Source of the DNA: Isoetes taiwanensis
Lineage: Eukaryota; Streptophyta; Lycopodiopsida; Isoetales; Isoetaceae
Direction: 5' to 3'
Assembly: GCA_021234155.1 (NCBI GenBank)
Contig: JAJEKV010000060.1
Span: 6,904,323 to 6,968,322, forward strand
Length of the DNA: 64,000 nt
A program made the position numbers and the translations under genes. Position 1 is the stretch's first letter; every line of letters begins with the position of its first letter. Positions 13,736 to 56,478 of the stretch are shown in pieces. The notes under the pieces are model-generated. The model was given only the letters and a program-made list of their open reading frames with translations, ran no database searches and was not told where the DNA came from.

Positions 13736-14222
13736 TCAATGAAATTGAGAAGGTAGGACAGACTTGGCCTTGATTCTATAGCGAATATATCGAGGAGATA
13801 CCTGGCTTGGCCCAAAGTTATACTGACCTCGGCTATTGTTAACAGTAGGACCATCATAGTATATATGGCCTAAAAGAGCACCACAGGATATGCACAACAG
13901 CTTGGTCCTTTTCCTCTGTATGCCCCAAAAATCGAGTGTCTCGAAAAAAGGCCAAATTTTACTTTCTATTTCCTGCCTGAATTTGGTCTCATCTGCTGCA
14001 AAAAAAGAAAGAGTACCTTTGTTTCCTGCCTCAAAGTAGGTGCCAGAAGGGTATAAGTTAGAAGAGCTGAGATTTAGCGCTGCATCACAGCTCGCACACC
14101 TATAAATCAAGAAATAAAAAATAGAAAAGGTATTGGTTACTGATCTTTGGCCAGGAATCTATATTCTACACAGATCTCAGAGCGCGCATCTAATATCCAT
14201 ACCTGTAGGTGATTTCCGACAT
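13736..14222 (-). CDS. At4g08330-like small zinc-cluster protein, two exons
   Basis: This is an intact gene of the plant family annotated as 'uncharacterized protein At4g08330, chloroplastic'. The main exon (14099-13736) reads back through a splice acceptor (TTTATAG before 14099). A 20-nt first coding exon at 14222-14203 starts with ATG and gives MSEITY, joined in frame to RCASC; its donor is AG/GTATGG. The intron is 103 bp and the product 127 residues. Two zinc-type pairs are visible, C8-x2-C11 and C76-x2-C79, with H85 shortly after, and the segment RTKLLCISCGALLGH is the family hallmark. There is no clear transit peptide despite the family name. The molecular function is not established to my knowledge; a zinc-binding role is inferred from the cysteines. 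The stop is TGA at 13738-13736. The leader contains AATTAGGGTTCGG, which resembles a plant telo-box (AAACCCTAA). Confidence 0.85.
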
Positions 14223-15300: not shown

Positions 15301-16272
15301 GTTAGGGTGACAATAAGAGGAGCACCAGATGATGAGGCTGTTTTATGCACTTCAAAAACTACATATGCCATTAAGTTTGTCTCTACATCAAACACCGTAT
15401 TGCTCATTCCCCCAAATGACTTGACAAATGGTGCTAAAGAAGAACCCATTGATGCTTTTGCAACAGTAACAGGACATCTGGAGGGCATGATAATGATTTA
15501 TATTCTTGGTATGATTTATTAGACAATGTGCAAGCAAGTGAAGAACAACTGAAAGAAGCTCTAAGGGATTTAGCTGCAGTTGAGATCAATGGGTACTGGC
15601 GTATCTTAGACCCTAAGTTGATGCAGTCCTTGCTTGAAATGATAATTTTTAAACTCTGTGCAACGTGAGTGGCCTCTTGATAGGATTCTGATTGATGAGG
15701 TTGTGTATGTCATGGAAGGTGATGGCTATTTACCTAACTTGGTAAGACATTGTTTAACAACATATGGACACCTGGCTGATTCTTCAGAGATTAACATATG
15801 GGCTCTTGATGAGAAGCAAGTTTCTCTGCAATTCGCAAGACAATTACTTCTTGGGGCATCAAAGTGGAGGATAAAAGATTTTATTCACACATGGCAACAA
15901 AAATTACCTTCAGGACTGAATTGTAACATTGACAGGCTACAGGGAGAGGCACTAATTGAGAAAATAGGGTCTGAGTTCTGGATACGGCCATATAGCATCT
16001 CTTCTTTGCCAAAGAAACCTGCTGCATGTTTTGCTGCATTGTTCAAGAAAAATCGAAGTGGGAATGGCAAGAATTGGAACCATATCTTCGGTAAGATAAG
16101 GCATACTGTAATTGAAAATGTCATCGTTTCTGTTTCAAGCAATGTAATACTCTCACTTATCTTTTCCAGGGATTTGCATGTTCCTGGACAATCGGTGGAG
16201 GCAATGCTTCTAAGGTACATTAGAAAGATCCAGCCGACAGCAGATGCACCCCTAGTGTACACTGCGAGGTAG
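15301..16272 (+). pseudogene. DCC1: DCC1 (sister chromatid cohesion protein, CTF18-RFC subunit), frameshifted
   Basis: DCC1 works with CTF8 and CTF18 in the alternative clamp loader RFC-CTF18 that loads PCNA and supports cohesion. The family signature is clear: VTIRGAPDDEAVLCTSKTTY at the start, then EEQLKEALRDL, INGYWRILDPK, EWPLDRI, LPNLVRHCLTTYG, LQGEAL, WIRPYSISSLP, DLHVPGQSVEAMLLRYIRK and the C-terminal YTAR just before TAG. Three single-base-scale frameshifts break it: near 15483 (G-run), near 15649 (A-run, one extra base) and near 16047 (A-run). After the third shift the sequence reads KWEWQELEPYLR, then a 79-bp GT-AG intron (16091-16169) that splices exactly into RDLHVPG. The intron means it is not a simple processed copy. 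It is a young pseudogene, or the indels are assembly errors at homopolymers. The usual N-terminal part is missing or replaced. Confidence 0.85.
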
Positions 16273-21990: not shown

Positions 21991-23880
21991 AGAACATGTT
22001 ATTTTCCTATTAGTTATTTGTTGGTATAGTCCTCTAATACTTGTGCACCATGCGAGATGACACCCGGTTGGTTCAGCGATGCCTATGCCAAGTCCGGAGG
22101 ATCATCTAATGGAGGCATTAATTGTAGAAGGCGAGAGAGAATATACAAGCGATTGTTCCTACACACGGGGTAGATAGTCTCTTTGACTTGTTTGTAAATT
22201 ACAGCTTTGTATGAGCCATGCTCAGAGCTTCTTTGTACTCAATAAGTAATGAAAAAATTAATTTATTTGTCTCACTTACACTGTGCAAATAACAATTGTG
22301 TAATTATCAATGTGTTTTCTCAATTGTGTGATCTGAAATGTAATTATAAATTGTGAATCTCAAGTGTTTTCTTCTGGCAGGGTGAATCATCTAATTGGGG
22401 AGAAAGCTCATTATCTTTGACTTAAATTACGTGTTGGGCAAGAGTTGTGCACAAGAATGAAAATATTAACTCAAGATACCAACGGATCCGGAAAGATGAG
22501 CTTCAATTTAATATAGGAAACATGTTTTTATTGCAGGCGTGGTTAGCATCACCGTTAGCATTTGTAAGAGAAGGGTTTGATGTTGCCATCCGGTCTTCAC
22601 TCACTTCTAAAAAATCTTCACCCAATTGTGGAACATATTTGTGATGCTTTTTCCATAAAGCTGAAGTTTGTTTCTGACCGGGAGCGGTGTTGTACTCGCC
22701 ACACAAACACCCCTATGAACCTCAAAAGGGTTGTTTGTGAAACCATTAAAACGTGGTATGGAAAGAGTACCCAGTACTATGGACATACGATTACGACGAC
22801 GACGAAAAGATACAAATCCACTTTGAATCCTGTAGGAAGCTACATATGTCCTTTCTCTTGGACACCGTGTTATTAGTCATGACAGTTGCTTGTCATGGAG
22901 CTCATTCCATGGCTTAATGGATTCAAAATGGTGAAGATGGTATACATTGACTAATGCGTGAGATAGCATATCGAAAGGGTGGAAATTTGATTTTGTTGGC
23001 AAACTATGGCAAAGAACTTGGGTGCTCTCTTTCCTAAATTTAGTCAATATCTGAACAAGGAATGGAGAAATCCATCATGTTATTGGCCTCTCGACCGCCC
23101 ATTGTTGGTACGGACTTTGACCGATGTACAAATTCAAATGTTATGAATATATGTATCAAAGTTTTTGTTCATTGCACTTGAGTACTGTTTTTTGTCTTTC
23201 TTATTGGTACAATTATGAGTGTGTATACATAATTAAGTGATCTTCATTTGCTTTGTAGATGAATGGACCTAAACACAAAAAGACTATTAAGAAACTAAGA
23301 GATAGAGTTCTTCTCTTGCACCCGGAGGTAATACAAACCAACACAAGCCGCAAGTACATAGGGTTGGGGACCGATTATCGCCTCTATAATTTCCGTTCTC
23401 GAACTTTGGGAAAAGGTTGAGCATATTGAAAATTATGAGGAACGAAAGCAACCATGAAATGTATATTGGCAAAAAAATCACTTGTTGCACAACCCTTGGG
23501 GAAGGAACGGTCCCTGGAAGATGCAGGGCCATGTAGGATGGAAAGGTTTGCCGCTGGCACGCTATAGAAACCGCATGGACTACGCGCTTTAGAGGATATC
23601 TCTTCACCTCTTGGCGGGCTGGAAGACATGATGCAATAGTCATAAGATATCGCCCCACCGACATTTTGAAGCTTGGTCATGAATTATGAGCCATGCTCAT
23701 TTTCTGTGTTGTATTTATGTCCACAATATAAATATATCAACCATTTGTACATGAAAACCTGTCCCATTTCTTATCTTTTGCCATGATTGAAACTATTTTT
23801 AATGTTTATGCAATTCAACTTTCTTATGTTCAATTCTAATCAACTTACACTTAACAAATTTTTATAATATTTCTGAATGT
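21991..23880 (+). other. Probable downstream remains of the same element
   Basis: Short open pieces and donor-like sites occur on the plus strand (for example around 23261-23400, starting ATGAATGGACCTAAACACAA), but no domain can be named. The long open frames on the opposite strand at 23287-23680 look like shadows. Confidence 0.25.
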
Positions 23881-23888
23881 ACAACGAG

Positions 23889-23929
23889 ATGTACATAAGA
23901 TGTACATTTGTTGTACATCTTATGTACAT
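23889..23929. repeat. Perfect 18-bp inverted repeat of TGTACAT units
   Basis: ATGTACATAAGATGTACA at 23889-23906 and its exact reverse complement at 23912-23929 are separated by 5 bases. Two further TGTACAT words follow to 23940. The same word is heavily repeated at 28690-28935 and appears at 30093. Confidence 0.85.
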
Positions 23930-24030
23930 TGATGTACATAATGCACTTCTGAAGTAGTCCAGTTCTTCAGTTCTTATCTTTTATATGAACAAAGTATTAC
24001 AATATTTCTGGAAAGTACTACAGATCTGAC

Positions 24031-24228
24031 TTAGTCCATGTCATCTACAATTGCTGGAAGTTGTGATAACAATGTCTCATGGACTTCATCTGGCAAGTGA
24101 AATGCTGTGCTTGCCCCCTTCAGCTTGTGTTTTACTTTCTTGAATGGGATTCGAACCCCAATCACAGATTCTGCAGGTACCAAAACATTCTTAGTAGGAA
24201 GCAGTTTATATGTAACGGACCTGGCCAC
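24031..24228 (-). CDS. Unrecognised C-terminal coding fragment
   Basis: An open frame of 65 codons ends in LPAIVDDMD and TGA (24033-24031). Its sequence (VRIPFKKVKHKLKGASTAFH, LPDEVHETLLSQLP) looks like genuine protein. It lies on the same strand and downstream of the SDG-family relic at 26949-29898, and could be the last exon of that gene, cut off by later insertions. This link is inference. No domain is recognised. Confidence 0.3.
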   Translation of the reverse strand: MARSVTYKLLPTKNVLVPAESVIGVRIPFKKVKHKLKGASTAFHLPDEVHETLLSQLPAIVDDMD

Positions 24229-26948
24229 CTAATGGTTCAGTATACGCATTTGTGTATGGTACGTATATGAGTTGTATATGTACTTGTGGCATGCATGCAG
24301 CATGAGCTCATGTAAACAAAGGGTTTATGAAAAAAGGCAATATTGGAAAATAGGGCTTTTGGTGGTACGTGAAGCTCTTTGCAAGAGAAGGCTATTTGGG
24401 AGCATCAAAGCAGAGAAGCAGTTGAGCTTATCGAAGTCGGAGACGGAGAACGGAACTGCACCAAATCCTCTCTTATCAGGTGGGGTTTTTCGTTGCTTGA
24501 TTTAACTTGAGGCACATGGGCTGCCGTGAAAAGATTTATATATGTTTTGCTAAGAGGATTATGGCATCTGCGTAGTCTAGTAAGCAAAGGATGATTGGAA
24601 GAAAGCCACAATTGGTTGTGTTGTCCAGAGATGACCTTTCTGAGGCCGGATTTGTAGAGGATGCTGCATCAACCGAAACATGGATATGAAGTCTAGATTT
24701 GATCCAGTGTAGAGCCAGGAGATTTGAAACAAAGGGGAGTTAAAATAGCATGCAAACTGAGATGGGTCAGGTCGAAATTGCTCCTTAAAGCAACCAGATT
24801 TAGAAGGGTAAAGGCAAATTGATTGCTTCTGGATAGAGCCCAAAAGATGGCACAGAACTGAAGCAACATCAATCCGATCTGGGAGACTCTTGCAAGTGGG
24901 CTGCAGCAGCATAAAAGGGGCTGAAATTGTGCTCTAAGGTGCTGTTTGGTAGAATTAAGGGTCGGCAAAGCCGTGTTGCAGAATTAGAAAAGCTCTGGAA
25001 GCGACCCAACTGGCCCAAAATGCTTCAAAATCAGCTCAATCAGGCCGATTTGGGCCCGAAGCAGATCTATTGGGTTGTGGGTCATATCTAGATGGTGAAT
25101 CGATGCCAAAATCAGAGCCCACGGAGGCCGAAACATGTCTACCTTGTTTACTTGTTTGCTGTTTTTTCGTTTCCTGTCATTTCTGTTGGGTTTTGGTCTT
25201 TGCTTTGTTGTTTATATTTGGAATTGATAACTTGTTGCTTGTTAACCAAATGTTATTTTAAGATACATAAAGATAAGAAAGGGAACATGAAAGTATAAGG
25301 TGTTGGGATCTAGCAGGCCATCCACCGAGTAAGTAAAGGCAAGCTTGGGTAAAACAAAGGGACGAAAATATGTAAGAACTTGTATTGCTTCTGAATTTAC
25401 GTAATAAGGAATAACATGTAATTTAAGACTAATAAGTCTAGAACTCTTGAAAATGGGTAATTCTTGGCTCCTGGAGATGGAACCTTGTCTAGGGATCAGT
25501 TGACAGATGTTATATGTAGTTACGGTCACAAGACCCTGTGGATTTTTAAGTTGGAAGTGCGGGTTTTTGAGTTTTTACATTAAGACGCACTAATAAATCC
25601 TTAGCTATGGAAAAGTAGGTTTTTAATGGAGATATTAAAAACCTTAGCTAATAATTTTAAAGAAAGAAAGCATGTTGGAACTTTGGAGACCTGGAGAAGT
25701 TGGGCCGAGAGAGAGCAATATGAGGTATATGGAGTGTCCAGATGAGGCTATGGCATGGAGCACTATTAGTCTAAGTGTATACCTGTAAGTTTCTAAGTTG
25801 TTGCAATATTGTAACAAAGGCATCGTAGCTAATGGATTATCCTCATGGGAGAATGGTTCCGAGGGTAAGTTTGCATTGTTTGGAATGTTGTTTTCCTTGT
25901 TCAAAGAAGTACATAGGGATGGGAGCTACATCAATGATAGTTAGGCTTGTGACTTCCTCAACATGTTTGGATCAGTAAGTTAGCTACCTCAACATGGGCA
26001 AGTTGTACAGGCAACATCGGCAAGAGTATGATCTAGGCACATTTATAGTAGATTGTCTAATGAACTTCACATGTTATGGTCTTGCATTGTCCCAATCGTT
26101 GATCTTGATCTTTTGTTATGTACTTGGAACCTCCGGCCTGACCTCTAGGTTCGGTGGCCTAGGTTGCTCCGGCATGCTTATGTTCATCCTGTGATTCTCC
26201 TCGTGGTTCTTGTGCTCGTGTGACACCGGGCATAGTTCTCCGGCGGGGATGCTATGTCACCTCTCAGTGACTCCATGGTAAGAGGTCCTCCGGCGCCGGG
26301 CGTGGGGCTGGGAAGGGTATCGATCTGAGGTTCACCCCACCAACTCCGCCAACGGGGCTCTAATGTGAGTGGGCCCGGGCATTTCTCTCGCTTCTTGTGG
26401 CCTCATGTAGGTCGGGCCGAGCTTCCCATTGTCCCGGAGCTATGTATCATGATGGTTTGGTATTTTTGACTATGTCTTTGCTTCTGATGTTCATATTGAT
26501 ATTTCTTTGGATTATGTTGTCATTGTCTTAGCACTGTACTCACGTAGGATTTTCCGTCTGTGTTTATGCTTATCCGAGATTTCCAGAGTATTTCCATGCA
26601 TGCGAAATGCGGCCGGGGATCCCCACTTAGTCACGAGGACTAACCCCAAAGAGTGCATGTGCGAAGGAATAAGCAAGGGATGGCAGCGGTGCAGCTGAGG
26701 ATCGTGGTTGAGCGAAGCTCCTGGGTTGAATTGTTCACAACTAGATGTTATATTTGTTGAGAATATGGATTCTTTGGATGTTAATGTTATCTGATTATAT
26801 TGAGATCATAAGTATTTTGCTTATTGAGTTTTGAACGTGTCATTTCAACTGTGCAAGAGGAAGATTCAATTCTTCACCATATCCAATTGTTTGTCACACC
26901 AACCTAGAATTAGCACAGTTTTGACAAGATCCCGAGTTGCCAGGAGGG
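24229..26948. other. Repeat-like non-coding DNA, possibly an LTR-retroelement relic
   Basis: No coding domain is recognised. The GC-rich patch at 26140-26430 (with 'gacctctaggttcggtggcc', 'ggcccgggcatttctctcgc') and the stretch at 26600-26720 resemble LTR or retroelement leader DNA in composition. I find no clear LTR pair, primer-binding site or polyprotein. Confidence 0.3.
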
Positions 26949-29898
26949 TCAACTCGGCAGGCTCGTCACATTATACTTATTGTGGCAGCCTGGGATTAGT
27001 TCATAATATTGTCCTTCAATGACACTAGTGCCAGCAGAGTATTCATTTCCATAGTCATCAATTGAATCTTCTTCCAATGCATGCTTTTCCCTGGTGCACA
27101 TGCGAACATAGTATGAAACACCTTCCACATTGTCCAGTCTTTGCAAAAGACACAAATACATCCTGAAAAAATTCTGGTATCATCTAAACCAGCCCTCGTC
27201 CTCTGCATACAAAACATCCACATCATTTTTCAGCTTCAACCACGAGGCAATATGATCCGTGGGCTCCAAACTTTTAGAGACCATTCTCCACAATGTTTAG
27301 TGTTCTCACAATTCAACCAATTGAAGTTCATGCAAGCATCAAAAAGCACGAGAGTGGTCTGCATAACAACTTTGTTTGGATCTGCTTTGGATTTATAGTT
27401 GACCTGAGAATGTATCTGGCGAGTACCGGGTAAAGTCTTGCAATTGAATGCTTCTTTGTTCACATCTGTTTTTCCAACCTCCCAAAACACCCTTTCACAA
27501 TCTGATTCCTTGGCCCTTAAAAGCGCACAAAGCCGTTTACACCACATCAGCGGCATGCCATTTTGTTTTCTCTGCTTTCGCTCTCAAGCCACAACTTTGC
27601 TATACCAGCCTACATCGCCATCATGTGTGCCTTTCCCATGGCGGATCCAAAGAAATTCCATATCACTTTCGAATTTTATTTTCAACATGGTATCTACTGA
27701 TTCCATACCATGCCAGTCTTGATTTGAATTGAGATGCACAACCATCCGACCACACATAATGAAGGTTTATGTGTCCACCTCCATTATTCTTAAGCCACCC
27801 CAAATGTAATTTAAAACCATGTTGCACAAAATGAGTGTCATGCTTCCCGTCATCCAAACATGGAAATGCACCTTTTTTTTTTTAGCTTACCTTCTATTTT
27901 CATCATTGAAATATGGACCAAAATACTAATTTGATCGAGGATTCCAATGCTCGGATTGCATTCCGTCCCTGGTTTCAATGTGTAGTTCTCTGCAAAGTCA
28001 ACAACGGGCAACACACTATTATCCGGGAGTTTTTCAACACATATTTTAAACTTTTGCTCGCCCGGTTAATTTGTAAAGTTATGATCGTAAACTTAGCAAG
28101 CTGATTTTCATGTTCTTTAACAAAACAGATGCTTTGTCATTCGATCAACTAATCTAAGCCTTCGGATGTACCTTTTTTGGATGGCTCATTGACATATGCA
28201 TATACTTGCCAGTCCACATTAAATTCCATCTTCCTCGTTTGGACGGATGTCTAATTTCTTCACTCCACATTCATCACATTCACCTTTGATGCATTTTAGT
28301 TTATGCCATTCATCCGTCGCATATTTCTAATAACCGTTGACCTCCACAAGATACTAACATTATCAAAAGTCTTCTTGTTTGCTTGACATACTCCATTGTT
28401 TTCTTTGGGATGCCACAGACAACAGCGCAAAGAAGTGCAATTAACATGTAGGGATCTCCTCATATCATTGAAGGCCTTTCTGTACAGATCTGCTTGCTCA
28501 TGTTTGACACAACAACATGTGTTTCTCTCCTTCAATTTCCTTATGCAATCAGGTTTGGATACTCGAACCGTCGAAGGCGAATTTTGGTATCGAGGATTAC
28601 GATATACAAACTGTTGATAAAGCTCAGACTACAATAACAAAAGCATTAAAGACCATGTTAGCAAAATGATGTCGGCAACCAGATGCCAAAAGAGTATTGA
28701 ACTATACTATTGTACATTTAATGTATGTTCTATGTACATAAAATGTCCATCCAATAGTTCCACTGATCTGTTACTTTACATCTAATGTACATCTAATGTA
28801 CATCAGTACATCTAATGTACAGCCAACAGTTCCACTGATCTGTTACTGTACATCCAATGTACATCCAATGTACATCTAATGTACATCTAATTAATGTTCC
28901 AATATTAGTACATCACATTAATGTTACAATATTAGTACAACTAATGTACATATGCATGATTTGTTTGGCTTCATTACCTGAAAGTACACTAAAATGTAAA
29001 ATGATGTAATTTTGATATTCAAGTACATGTAAATGCAGCTGCATGGACATGTAAGTGTTAATGGATGTACATCTAAAAAGTACCTAATAGCACATCACTG
29101 CAAGATTTTTGCTACTATGTAAACAATGTAAAAAATGTAAACAATGTAAAATGCAATACATTTCATGAGGTCACTCGGAACAGAACTAGAATGTACAGAA
29201 GAAAGTCATAAAAGACTTTTGGAAGAAAACATAATCTCCAAAACTGAATTGATTCAATTACAAGAGCAAACCTGTGAGATATCAAGGTATTGTATTGCTT
29301 GTGTTCTCCTCTTTGTGACATCTCTAACCTTTGGTGAAACTTTGGTATTATCAAGCCAAAATTCACGAACCTGACATTTGATTGAATCATCGATTCTATT
29401 TGATCTTGGCATCCTTCCTGCCAAAGCCCATACATTTGCTCCACTTGATGACACTATCTTCCTTCTTGCTGCAGCTTTGGATAAATTTCTTGAATGTATC
29501 TTTAGCAATTTTGAAGAAATAATTGATAACAGTGAATGTTTTGCAGCCAATTTATCTTTGTTATTAGCAGACTTTACTTCTTGAAGCCCATCTTTCAAGT
29601 TTCTGATCATTGATTTCATAACAATAACTTCGGAAGGATTTCCAATTACAGGTTCGAAAAAAGAAAAAAGCCTGTCATCTTGCAACAAACGAGCACAAAA
29701 AACTAATCTTTGATCTGGACGAAGCGTTTGCCAGCAACTGAGGATGCAATCCACCGACTTGTCAACACGCTGCTTTATTTGTTTTGTGGTATAACACTGG
29801 CCAATGTCGGCATACTTGCGCTTAGAACCATCACTTCCATTGGAATTCTCACCCTCCATGAACAGATTGAAATTGATTTGTATTTCTTGTAGATTCAA
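26949..29898 (-). pseudogene. Transposase-like gene of the SDG/FAENY family, decayed
   Basis: Ordered minus-strand fragments belong to a conserved family I know from uncharacterised animal and non-flowering-plant proteins, without a formal name I can give. 29898-29272: N-terminal 209 codons with a coiled middle and REFWLDNTKVSPKVRDVTKR, ending at a donor CACAG/GTTTGC. 28617-28260: PSTVRVSKPDCIRKL, NTCCCVKHEQADLYRKAFND and CIKGECDECGVKKL, a Cys/His zinc-like part. 28100-27900: VVDFAENYTLKPGTE. 27857-27663: HYVWSDGCASQFKSRLAWYG. 27556-27236: KTLPGTRQIHS and CENTKHCGEW. 27226-26949: VSYYVRMCTREKHALEEDS and IEGQYYE. The Asp of DFAENY and the Asp of WSDG sit where a DDE/RNase-H-fold transposase has its first two catalytic acids; that is inference. 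Stops and frameshifts between the fragments make it non-functional. Confidence 0.65.
28690..28935. repeat. TGTACAT-rich repeat array with 72-bp duplication
   Basis: The words 'aatgtacat' and 'gtacatctaa' occur about ten times in 250 bases. A larger unit beginning 'agttccactgatctgttac' is repeated with a 72-base period (about 28756 and 28828). The array lies between the first two fragments of the SDG-family gene, so it would be intronic if that gene were transcribed. Confidence 0.8.
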
Positions 29899-31429
29899 TT
29901 GGCATGTGTTTGCTTCTAGAATTCGTTCGGTGTTCGTCCTGTAAAAGGGGGGAATTTCGGAAAGGGAGGGACGGATCCATTCGAATTGGTTCGGTGGTTC
30001 GGTGGTTAACCAAGAATTTCGGGGGCACTGTCAGGGATGATCTTGCAATCATTGCAAACCTGACACAAAACAACAAACCATAGTATCTTGATGTACATCT
30101 AAAATGTACCCCAAAAAAGCACAAATTCGTCCTTCAATTCAGTACGATGTACGTACACCCTTTCATGCTTTTATCCCGCTGTAAGTTTCTTATATTTATT
30201 TAAGTTTTCTTTGCTCTTCCTTATTTCTAACACATTTTTTTTTTGTTGTATAGGATTTTTCGTGGCATTTCATAAACAGGTTAAGGTTTATCTCTAAGAA
30301 CCTTGTATCATGAAAAGCTTAAGGTAATGGTGTGTTCTTCCATAAATATTTATAAACTTCACTCATCTGTTTAACTTTGTTGCAGGTTTTAGGCTGCAAT
30401 TTCTAACATCACACTTAGGTAAGTGTTTTCGGTTGCATGCAGAGTTTTTTACTTTCTTGCAATAAACAAACATATAGTCATTGTTGCAAATTTGCAGCAG
30501 ATTTGTAATGGGAGAGCCAAGGTTGATGCTGCTATTTGCCTAACTGATGAGCTATTGTTTGCCAAACAGTGTTTATGAAACTTTGTTCTTCAAAATGCCA
30601 AGCAGGTCTTAATTTTTAAAAGTATGGAAGTCTTTTGTGAAGTGATTTTGCAGGCATTGTAATGTTGATGCATTGTATCCATTGAATCTATAATGAGAAG
30701 ATTACCAAATGGTTACTACCATAATGAGTTTTTCAATTTAAGATTTGATTAGTTTAGCAGTTTAAGGTTGTGAAGGTGAAGTGGCCCTAAGAGTTTACAT
30801 GTTCAGTTATAAGAAGGTTAAAAGTTATAAGAATTTACCAATGATTAAATGATTAAATGGCGGTGCTCTAAGCGGCGCCGCCAACAAGTTGCATTGAAAA
30901 CCAAAAAATTACCCAAAGTAAACAATTGCTCAAAAATCCAGGAATTTCAATGAGCTGGCAGTTTATGGAGTTTTTTTAAGTTCCAACTTTTGTTGAAGGA
31001 CTTCGTATAAATACCAACCCCAATTCCAAATTGTAAAATGTTTCTTACTTTCACCTTAGGCTTAACAAGTAGATAAGTTAATGTCAAACATTCCTGGCCT
31101 ATGGCTTATCTGGGACTATGTTGTGCCTCGTGGCAAACTCAGCCATGAAACTCGACATTCCCATCAGATTCAATTGACAAATTTCCGTTGATGAGCCCAA
31201 GTCGATCCTATATTTTTCAGATGATGGAGCACTACATCTAAAAAACTCAAGATGAATTGGGTTTGTCTTGTAGTGGAGGAAGCATCTTCTTCTAGCGAAT
31301 CTATCTTCTAGTAGGTTGAGCCATTTAAAAACCAGGCAGAAGAGAAATAGTCTCAATTTCTTCTTCTTGAATTTGATGATATGGCACAATGGTCAAACTC
31401 AGGCTATACCCTAATGGGGATCCGCCCTA
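29899..31429. other. Intergenic, nothing recognised
   Basis: 'ggttcggtggttcggtggtt' at 29988-30007 is a small direct repeat. A last TGTACAT word is at 30093. There is no coding signature. If the SDG-family relic had a promoter it would lie in the first part of this stretch. Confidence 0.35.
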
Positions 31430-31553: not shown

Positions 31554-32657
31554 CCTAACCAACTGGCCAAAACCATCCAAATGTATATGATCATGAAGAT
31601 ATATAAGGTCCAACGAATGATGCCCAATTTTTATGTTATAAGTGTCGCATAGGCAAATTGGTCTCCCAATTGATGTTAACAATACTTTAAATGAAAGGTA
31701 GATCCTTAAACAAATCTGGTTACGGATCATCTGAACAAACTAAAAAGTTAAAACGAATAATGCATGATTGAGAGGAACAAGATGAAGGCACTGAAAGTTT
31801 ATATAATGGCCAAATTTGTAGAGAATTTTATTTATGTAACAAGAAAGCCCCAATATGAGTTAATTTTGCAATTAGGGGAACCCTTACAAAAGCACCTCAT
31901 TGAAATGCAGTTTAAATATCTAGCATAAAACTTAGGAACTTGGGGATATCTACTCTTTTATTTTTTGTTTTATTTATTTATTTTTTTAATATGGTTTTGC
32001 TATGATTTGGTTGTTGTATTTACTTAGATGTACAACTAATATTGTGTACAAATTTGGCAGAGTTATTTGGATGGTCTGGATATTTGATGAGTTGCAGCCC
32101 CCTTTTTTTATTGTTTGATTGTTCGAAAGAGTTTAGATGTTATGTGATTATATGAGAATTGTTCATTTATTTTCATCCCTCAACTGATTTTGTTTTGCAT
32201 TAGTAGTCCAAATACTCTTAATTTTGTAGTACATAATTTTGCAAAATTATAAGTTTGCAAGGACTATATTTCTTCGATTAAAACATTTAAAAACAAAGTT
32301 TCAATTGAAAACTTTCTATAAAATGCAAGTCTTCAAATTGAAAACTTTGACACAATTAAAACTTTACTTAATAACGATTTAAATGCTCACAACAGGTATA
32401 TGTATTAGTGTATAGACTTTTTAGAAAATATAGTTTTCTAATCGGCTTTCTTTTTTAAGCCATTTTTCAATTGAAATGTTTAGATACAAGTCTTCAAGTG
32501 ATCTTTCTTTTCCCCTTTTTTTTATGCAAAGGAAATTTTCATTGAAATGCAAAAATTAAATGTATCAGTTGTTGTATAATGCTATGCAAGATTACTGGTT
32601 ATATGCTTTTAGTAACTTACTACTCCATCCATGCAGATTATTGATGCTTATGCAAAA
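31554..32657. other. AT-rich intergenic, nothing recognised
   Basis: Very AT-rich with poly-T runs. No gene, RNA or transposon end is seen. Confidence 0.45.
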
Positions 32658-33173
32658 GAATGAGAATGAGAATGAGAATGATTTTTTATCGTCCACTGAG
32701 GCCAATTGGCCTATGGGACCCACAAGGAGCGCAGCAAACTTATTACTGTCCGGGTTAAAAAACCCCCGCCCCGAAGGGTTTTCGAGGGAAAACCCGTGGC
32801 AGTAATAAGAATGCTGTCAAACTGTACAAGTATACATCAATGTATATATATATGTCAAGTGTGTGCCCGAGGACATAGCTGATCTCGCATCTGAAGGTAT
32901 GATCCCAGCACCCGTACGGATGCTGTGCTCAATGTCACATGTAATGGCTGGCCGGCCTGACCAACTCAGCATAGCGCGTCCGAATTTGATCATATGCTGG
33001 GCAACTTTGAAGGGTATGAGATTCATCCTCAATGACTCCCATTTGGCAGCATTGACAGAGCCTGTCCTGGCATGGTTCACCAATCCATTTGCCCGTCTCA
33101 ATTCGAAGATGATGTGCCCCTGTGCGAATGGAGGCAATGAGTCTGCGCCTTTTCATGGGCAAGTGGGTATCTT
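32658..33173 (-). mobile_element. LINE family A, 5'-truncated copy with (GAGAAT)n tail
   Basis: The 3' end is on the left: a tail of (ATTCTC)n on the element strand, seen as 'gagaatgagaatgagaat' at 32661-32678, then the conserved 3' end with a C(TTCG)G hairpin (32765-32780), then the C-terminal part of the reverse-transcriptase ORF. The zinc-knuckle-like C-terminus is clear on the minus strand: HHLRIETGKWIGEP, CQCCQMGVIEDESHTLQSCP, DQIRTRYAELV. Homology to the copy at 51325 stops at 33173. It is very similar to that copy, so insertion was recent. It encodes no complete protein. Confidence 0.85.
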
Positions 33174-33800: not shown

Positions 33801-35163
33801 CGACTTTATGGAAAAGCAACAAAAAATGCCACTGGTGATCTTGTCGATGTCAAGGGTGGTTCTCATATCCTCTTCACGCCACCCCACGCCTCTTGCACTC
33901 ACATATCGGGGACAGTCTGTGGAGGTCACGCCCACCTACAAGTACCTAGGGGTGGAGTTCCCCTCCTCGCTCTGTTGGGAGGCGTCCATCCGCTACGGTG
34001 TGACAAAGAGTGGAAAGCGCTTTATGTCATGCGTAACAATAGTCACCAGCAGCTCTATGATTGGGGCCATCGGTCACATCTGCTTTGGCGTTAGTCGAGC
34101 CCGTCCTTCCCTTCTGACGGGTCGAGGTTTGGGGTCCGGGCGCCTCTTTGGCGACTGGAATGACTTGGAACAGTGTGAGGGCATTTTTGGCACGGGCACT
34201 TGGGGTGAAACCTTCCAGTCCCCTATCGGATTCTGCTGCAGAAGCCGGATTCTTGCCGCTTCCACGGCAGCCCTTGATAGACACATCGCCTATTTTCGTA
34301 AAGTGGTTAATATGGGTGATGCTCGGCTCCCTTTTTTGCTTCTGCCAGGGCAATGGGCCCGCAGCGGCTCGGGGGCCTGCTGGAGGGGTAAGAGAGATCG
34401 CTGGTTCGCCAGATGGAACGCGGGGAGCACGAGTGTGTGTGCGGTGAACACGAGGCCGATCGTGGCGACTGCGGAGTGCCCGGACGCTTGCTTCCTTGGC
34501 AAGCTCGGGGACCCCGCGGCTCTAGAGCAGGTCAAAACGGCCCATTACAAGGAGCACATCAACACCGTGTTAGCCCGGGCCCGCAGGCTCTACTTATGTT
34601 CCCGGCGCCCAAAAAGCGCCCAGACTCATTGCCTCCATTCGCCATTCGGTGCCCACCATCTTCGCGATCGAGACGGACGGTGGATTGGGGAGCCCCCCGG
34701 GGGGACGGGCTCTGGCGATCTTTGCCAAACGGGTGCCATTGAGGATAAGTCTCACACTTTCCGAGTTGCCCAAAGATTCGGCCAGATCCGGGCGGAATCG
34801 CTCTCTAAATACGGCGGACTTGCCCCTACATTTGCCGATGAACACACCGCCGTCGACGCGTGCTCGGGGTCGCATATCTTCGGAGATCTTTGGATCTGCG
34901 AGCTCACCTTTGCCCCCGCCTAGCTGCCCGCTGATCAGGCACTACGGGTGCGATGCATGAGTGTATATATTTGTGTGTTTTTGCATTTCGTATATTGAAA
35001 CAGTTTTTCAGCAGGCTGATTGCTGCCACGGTTTTTCCCTCGAAAACCCTTCGGGGCGGGGGTTTTTTAATCCGGGTAGTAATCCGCTTGCTGCGCTTTT
35101 GTATTGGGTCCCATAGGCCGATTGGTCTCCGTGGACGATAAAAATACCTTCCTTCCTTCCTTA
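33800..35163 (+). mobile_element. LINE family A, longest ORF2 C-terminal copy
   Basis: An open frame of 379 codons (33784-34923) covers the region after the RT palm: QSVEVTPTYKYLGVEFPSS, DWNDLEQCEG, AALDRHIAYFRK, DARLPFLLLPGQW, ALEQVKTAHYKEHINT, GAHHLRDRDGRWIGEP and AIEDKSHTF. The catalytic YADD part is absent through 5' truncation, and frame slips occur at about 34020-34140 and near 34720, where the Cys/His knuckle is damaged. The 3' untranslated end (34924-35150) carries the C(TTCG)G hairpin at 35043-35066 and ends 'ggtctccgtggacgataaaa' followed by a (CCTT)n tail. Not active. Confidence 0.85.
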
Positions 35164-38954: not shown

Positions 38955-39189
38955 GTTTGGGGCATTTTTTCTGCTTCTTATCTCCTTTTTCTTGCTTTTT
39001 TTTTGTGATGGGTTGTCGTCTTTAGGTCCTATACAGATCTGGTATCCTTTAGATGATTTAAAGATTACTGTTTGGTTTGTAAGCAAGCTCTGTTTGTCTT
39101 GTTCAGATTTGTGCTCCAGCATCGACCTTTTGGTTGAATAGAGTCAAATTTCAGTTCTGAGTTCAAGGTTTTATAATATTCGTAAAGTC

Positions 39190-51324: not shown

Positions 51325-52431
51325 GAGAATGAGAATGAGAATGAGAATGATTTTTTATCGTCCACTGAGGCCAATCGGCCTATGGGACCCATAAGGAGCG
51401 CAGCAAACTTATTACTGTTCGGGTTAAAAAACCCCCACCCCGAAGGGTTTTCGAGGGAAAAACCGTGGCAGTAATAAGAATGCTGTCAAACTGTACAAGT
51501 ATACATCAATGTTTATATACATGTCAAGTGTGTGCCCGAGGACATAGCTGATCTCGCATGTCCATAACCTCCGAAGATATGATCCCAAAGCACGTGACGG
51601 ATCTTTGTGCTCAATGTCACATGTAACGGTGGCCGGGCGACCAATTCGACATATCGTGTCCGAATTTGATCATATCTTTGGGCAACTTTGAAGGGTATGA
51701 GATTCATCCTCAATGACTCCCATTTGGCGGCGTGACGAGCTGTCTGGCGTGGCTCACCAATCCATCCGCTTTGTCTCAATTCGAAGATGATGTGCCCCCG
51801 TGTGCGAATGGAGGCAATGAGTGCGCACCTTTTCATGGGCAAGTGGGTACGCAGGTAGCATTGGGGGCCACGTTCCAATATGGGATTTATGTGGCGCCGG
51901 TAGTGTGCTTCTTTGTCTTGACCTGTTCAAGGGCATTGGCATCCCAAAGCTTGGCGAGGAAGCAATCGTCAAGATATTGCCTCAAGCTATGGCGATCGCC
52001 TCTGTTTGCACATGTATGCACCTCGCTCTGCACATTCCATCTAGCCAACCATTGAGCTCTCTTTTCCCTCCAAAGCGGGCCTTGAGGCGCTGACTCCATT
52101 GCCATGATATAAGCTAGTTTAGGGAGACGAGCATCGTCCCATATTGACCACCTTCGAAAATAGACAATGTGGCGATCAAGGGCCCCCTCAAGAGGCAAGA
52201 ATCCTGTCTCCTGCAGTAGAATTTGATATGGGACTGTGGACTTCACCCCTAGTGCTCGTACTAAGAAGGCTTTCGGACTGCTCCAAGTCATTCCAAGTAG
52301 CAAGTGATACTCTTGGGCCCCATACTTCCACCGTTAAAAGGACAGGCTCCACTAAGACCTTGAACAGGCGTGACTGATGGGCCCAATCATACAACTCCGC
52401 TCTATGACCATTGACATTAATTAACACAACC
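51325..52431 (-). mobile_element. LINE family A, 1.1-kb copy with (GAGAAT)n tail
   Basis: The tail 'gagaatgagaatgagaat' (51325-51349) and the hairpin-bearing 3' end (51438-51448 core) are followed on the minus strand by the ORF2 C-terminal half: AELYDWAHQSRLFKVLVEPV, ATWNDLEQSE, ALDRHIVYFRRWSIWDDARL, ANALEQVKTKKH, HHLRIETKRM. Homology to the copy at 33800-35163 ends near 52431, where the arm of a foldback repeat begins. Frameshifts break the frame, and the RT catalytic core is missing. It is very similar to the copy at 32658 over the shared part. Confidence 0.85.
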
Positions 52432-56149: not shown

Positions 56150-56478
56150 AACGAGAGCTGCCGGATGGGCATATTTGCCCTTTATTCCAAGATCTGGAAC
56201 GTACATAGCGATCCTCGTTTGTGGGGTATGCATGTACAAGTTTAAGTATACTGTATATTAAAGTTTGCAAAATACTATAAGGTTTGAGAGAATGTACTTA
56301 ATAGTGTTAATTTTGTACATGTATTGTAAATATATTTTTGGGGCTCTCGCTGCCCTACGTAACCCCCCGTGTGAATATGCACCCAAACCAAAGGGGGTTT
56401 AAGGGGGATTTTAATTTAAATGTGTGAAATGCAATGGTTTATGTTAATAATGTTAATGGTAGTTGTGTGTTGATTGTT
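56150..56478. mobile_element. Relative of the foldback element, one arm missing
   Basis: It shares 'tcctcgtttgtggggtatgc', 'gcaaaatactataagg', 'gctgccctacgtaacccccc', 'gtgtgaatatgcacccaaac' and 'gggattttaatttaaatgtg' with 52520-52840 in the same order. The inverted left arm is absent. Its right edge touches the hairpin repeat at 56482. Confidence 0.7.

Follow-up and report, generated by a model that had tools for sequence, protein, structure and literature searches.

A 64,000-nucleotide window of the Isoetes taiwanensis genome carries on its minus strand the remains of an intron-bearing gene that is most likely an ordinary transposon fossil. Our preferred reading, to which we assign a probability of about 0.6, is that this gene belonged to an autonomous cut-and-paste DNA transposon and encoded a large transposase with a putative Asp-Asp-Asp (DDD) catalytic triad. 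A first-pass annotation of the sequence had described a decayed, transposase-like gene in this region, an observation that is real but incomplete and that our analysis confirms in part.

We read the three minus-strand frames together with stop-to-stop ORFs, which placed the coding fragments in order along the minus strand. Exon 1 (29272–29859, minus strand) comprises 196 codons from a Met at 29859 to a GT splice donor and lies inside a stop-free run of 258 amino acids. It contains FWLDNTKVSPKVRDVTKRR, which possibly represents a helix-turn-helix; the AlphaFold prediction for exon 1 is mostly helical with a mean pLDDT of 41.6 and is hence weak. The intron that follows (28629–29271, minus strand) is a 643 bp GT-AG intron in phase 0 and is rich in the hexamers ATGTAC/GTACAT. 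At its donor CACAG is followed across the junction by GTTTGC, while at its acceptor TTATTGTAG is followed by TCTGAG; the joined frame is open through both exon 1 and the opening piece of exon 2. Exon 2 begins with a 105-codon open frame rich in Cys and His (28314–28628, minus strand; CCCVKH and NCTSLRCCLWH) that is a possible zinc-binding region, and it continues in a different frame with a piece carrying CIKGECDECG (28222–28326, minus strand). Downstream of the Cys/His piece, exon 2 changes frame several times as one reads through VVDFAENY, QSEHW, ISILVHI, WSDGCASQFKSR, WNFF, HGKGTHDG and GTRQIH. Beyond the core lie a 115-codon open frame with LPGTRQIH (27239–27583, minus strand), a short C-terminal piece found by reading the frames (27183–27260, minus strand) and the upstream half of a C-terminal exon (26971–27179, minus strand). 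The fragments named in the first-pass annotation, namely VVDFAENY, WSDGCASQFKSR (around 27749–27718), GTRQIH, the Cys/His region and a splice donor after exon 1, are thus all present and ordered on the minus strand.

The same annotation let the gene end at 26949, which proved too short. The frame of the last exon is interrupted by an insertion at 24211–26970, and 59 additional codons are found beyond it (24034–24210, minus strand) before a stop at 24033–24031. The insertion is 2,760 bp long with LTR-like TG..CA ends and a 5-bp duplication, TTATA; its termini, TGTAACGGAC..GCTCGTCACA, match inverted at 8 of 11 bases. The tested span offers two TG..CA pairs flanked by a 5-bp duplication, of which only 24211–26970 gives an empty site that is in frame and free of stops, at which the downstream half of the exon is in frame with 26976–27179. 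No internal repeat was found in the insertion and it is therefore possibly a solo LTR; no other copy of it was found in the window. The window records a nested history in which an LTR-like element sits inside the last exon of a decayed transposon-like gene.

The middle of the gene contains three candidate catalytic Asp residues. The first lies in VVDFAENY (piece 27889–28065, minus strand; Asp codon 27999–27997), the second in the WSDG of WSDGCASQFKSR (27666–27881, minus strand; Asp codon 27746–27744) and the third in HGKGTHDG (27587–27667, minus strand; Asp codon 27622–27620). The third, putatively catalytic acid (HDG) is an addition to the two Asp residues noted in the earlier annotation. Within 27889–28065, QSEHW follows VVDFAENY in a second frame and ISILVHISMM is again in the first frame, and WNFF occurs in a frame overlapping the third-candidate piece (27587–27667). 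About 83 residues separate the first Asp from the second in the read-through and about 40, as measured by coordinates, separate the second from the third. Judged by this order, the Asp codons are consistent with a DD(about 40)D arrangement and with the order of an RNase-H-like core with a putative DDD triad. The succession of D, a strand-like stretch, D, a helix-like stretch, WNFF and HGKxxxDG would likewise be as in RNase-H-type transposases. Proteins that carry DFSENY, SDGxxxQ(F/Y)K and HGKxxxDGxG probably occur in animals and seedless plants, which we treat as a lead. AlphaFold run on the single sequence of the core read-through gave a pLDDT of 37.0 and was uninformative.

The distribution of ATGTAC/GTACAT ties the noncoding parts of the gene together. 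There are 80 copies in the window, 37 of which fall within 1,105 bp belonging to the intron, the region past the stop and the leader, where an even spread would put about 1.4 copies, with the regions having been picked after the cluster was seen. The intron holds 23 of the 80 copies, a cluster directly past the stop (23877–23939) accounts for the 10 found in 23860–24030, and repeats in the 5' leader (30091–30152) account for the 4 found in 29860–30150. The coding pieces counted contain a single copy. Leader, intron and 3' flank are therefore linked by a shared repeat, and this repeat would suit a role as putative repeated binding sites for the transposase. A small second cluster of 4 of the 80 copies is located at 56201–56320, away from the gene.

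Under the transposon reading, a gene with at least one intron would have coded for a large transposase in which an N-terminal and Cys-rich region served in DNA binding, followed by an RNase-H-like core with the candidate Asp-Asp-Asp triad (VVDFAENY, WSDG, HDG) and then by a C-terminal domain. The intact transposase would have bound to repeats close to the element ends, perhaps ATGTAC/GTACAT, excised the element and joined it elsewhere. The gene would later have decayed through frame changes and through insertion of the LTR-like element in its last exon.

The ends of such an element are not evident in the window. No inverted repeats beyond the shuffle range were detected between the gene flanks, a comparison that a short or decayed repeat could escape; the best inverted match scored 26 in both flank pairs, as compared with shuffle means of 25.8 (maximum 33) and 22.7 (maximum 31). 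A joint search for element ends and a target duplication, with 10 shuffles per setting, also yielded nothing convincing. For a 4-bp duplication, three levels of stringency gave 0, 1 and 2 candidates versus shuffle means of 0.3, 0.2 and 0.8, and for a 2-bp duplication there were 10 versus a shuffle mean of 5.8. A 6-bp duplication gave 2 candidates versus a shuffle mean of 0.1, both within the ATGTAC repeat itself.

Searches of family libraries with the gene pieces returned no credible match in Pfam, NCBIfam or PHROGs (best E-values 0.08, 0.07 and 0.03). For the GTRQIH piece, Pfam gave no credible match (best E 0.17). Neither this piece nor exon 1 matched any PDB sequence at E up to 1. Even at E up to 10, Pfam showed no match to an integrase core or a transposase for eight pieces or for the 133-residue read-through and three more, a search of low sensitivity on decayed pieces. 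Searches of Rfam and for tRNAs returned nothing. DUF7869, a conceivable Pfam name for the gene family, was returned by no Pfam scan and the term is absent from the literature searched. The earlier description of a transposase-like decayed gene agrees with the motif order, the three Asp residues, the Cys-rich part, the intron and the repeat common to leader, intron and 3' flank; transposase homology was obtained from no search.

A phmmer comparison of the read-through with the PDB did return an Epa-type yeast adhesin (4a3x, E 1.5e-4), and Epa1/Epa6 make up 9 of the 17 PDB sequences listed for the read-through. We rejected this match because it is without Pfam support (no family for the read-through, even at E up to 10) and covers only 66 residues (54–119 of the read-through, about 27906–27708); it is probably due to chance. 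Relatives were also sought in viral, genome, phage and plasmid collections, none of which is meant for plants or animals, with patterns that mixed letters of the window with motifs from outside it. In viral contigs the 72-residue WSDG piece used as query gave 8 pattern stretches and 0 relatives, and further motif-pattern scans gave 0 matches each. Genome contigs gave one pattern match (L001), which we rejected as chance since the motif lies close to the beginning of an ORF resembling, by eye, a bacterial dehydrogenase. Phages and plasmids gave no protein match at E up to 1, and plasmids also gave none by DNA. These negative results are weak because the patterns were partly built on motifs from outside the window.

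Sola, a superfamily divided into Sola1, Sola2 and Sola3, is the most likely named home of the gene, an assignment that we make from published descriptions and hold tentatively, at somewhat less than even odds. According to one review, Sola elements encode a DDD transposase, generate 4-bp duplications, are mostly 2–9 kb long and have terminal inverted repeats reported at 11–1124 bp; the same review gives their range as bacteria, metazoans and the moss Physcomitrella, with seemingly few in flowering plants (PMC10741241). Two other sources give a mean length of 5,445 bp for Sola1 in bivalves (PMC10294476) and list 2,739 Sola elements in the fern Ceratopteris (PMC6890710). This argument from distribution is loose because Physcomitrella Sola1 is listed, in a further source, also in Capsicum, a flowering plant (PMC9033089). 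For convergence in profile comparisons of transposases, the Repbase criterion is E below 0.005 (PMC4455052). Compared by description, the candidate DDD triad of the gene would resemble that of the Sola DDD transposase, whereas nothing clearly above chance was found at the gene for the 4-bp duplication typical of Sola or for ends to go with it. If the gene is Sola, it would be one more decayed plant copy, mainly of use for annotation, that no library used here had labelled.

The failure of the Pfam, NCBIfam and PHROGs searches to recognize any gene piece credibly, together with the absence of motif strings of this kind from the literature searched, would also be expected of a DDD/E transposase superfamily that is without a name and distinct from Sola, as the first-pass annotation suggested. 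We regard this as rather unlikely. Rarer eukaryotic superfamilies are few in Pfam. Silence of the searches says little because this coverage is thin, because decayed pieces score poorly and because papers rarely spell out motif strings. The more specific proposal is that an unnamed DNA-transposon superfamily common to animals and seedless plants would have a DDD transposase of large size, built of N-terminal helices, a Cys-rich part, a DFAENY/SDG/HGKxxxDG core and a C-terminal domain, with ATGTAC/GTACAT as its binding sites, and this we consider unlikely. Were the family indeed unnamed, it would constitute a new cut-and-paste superfamily and would explain many uncharacterized animal and plant proteins said to carry these motifs.

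A former host gene, or a domesticated transposon gene, that is now a pseudogene would account for the presence of an intron, for the lack of clear element ends and for the absence of a second gene copy in the window (tblastn with nine pieces; best matches elsewhere E 0.12 or more). We nevertheless consider such an origin improbable, as a short repeat common to leader, intron and 3' flank would be unusual in a host gene and the disruption of the frames suggests that selection did not last.

It is also quite improbable that the gene is a remnant of some other named superfamily, integrase-like or otherwise (IS3EU/GingerRoot, IS481EU, Ginger, Academ, Kolobok, hAT, MuDR, P or Dada). The D-D-D/E order, with the last two acids about 40 residues apart, would be like that of integrase-type cores. 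However, Pfam gave no integrase or transposase match even at E up to 10, and the first two Asp residues of the gene are about 83 residues apart. In retroviral-type integrases the first two Asp residues are closer together than this. The candidate triad would also be shared in kind with hAT, MuDR, Kolobok, P and Dada, which are eukaryotic DDD/E transposases. By eye, the stretch from the second Asp to the third showed no C/DxxH motif in the three frames of this decayed copy. According to one source, C/DxxH is a motif of the hAT, MuDR, Kolobok, P and Dada group, GingerRoot is known from a clubmoss, which favors an integrase-like identity, and IS3EU/GingerRoot and IS481EU have an integrase-like D-D-D/E order similar to that of the gene, differing from it in the two respects given above (PMC10045372).

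None of 500 dinucleotide shuffles of 26900–30140 contained a stop-free run as long as the 258-residue run enclosing exon 1 (longest run per shuffle: mean 112, maximum 217). Single pieces of 26–115 codons are no rarity in a stretch of this kind, but it is very unlikely that chance open frames merely spell transposase-like words, because the length of this run beats all shuffles and because the frame is preserved across both the intron and the empty site. A codon score whose training set was just 4 ORFs from this window ranked the claimed frame first of six in 8 of the 10 pieces, with some of the margins thin; the piece with the first Asp and the last C-terminal piece are those in which the claimed frame is not top. 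A degenerate WSDGC..QFK pattern, composed after the match was seen, has 1 match in the window versus 0 in 100 shuffles.

Several other features lie elsewhere in the window. An inverted dispersed repeat (34056–35144 versus 51352–52391) is 68% identical over 1.1 kb and is overlapped by ORFs of 390 and 148 amino acids; Pfam returned nothing at E up to 1 for the 390-residue ORF, and by eye we take the repeat to be LINE-like. A direct repeat (32657–33169 versus 51326–51849) is 89% identical. A 496-residue ORF at 39142–40632 matches a zinc ribbon (Zn_ribbon_19) and a RING domain in Pfam, so that its predicted product is likely an E3 ubiquitin ligase; this match and those of the two ORFs given next are in keeping with a land plant. 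ORFs at 15646–16272 and 13736–14158 have Pfam matches to Dcc1 (sister chromatid cohesion) and to At4g08330, respectively.
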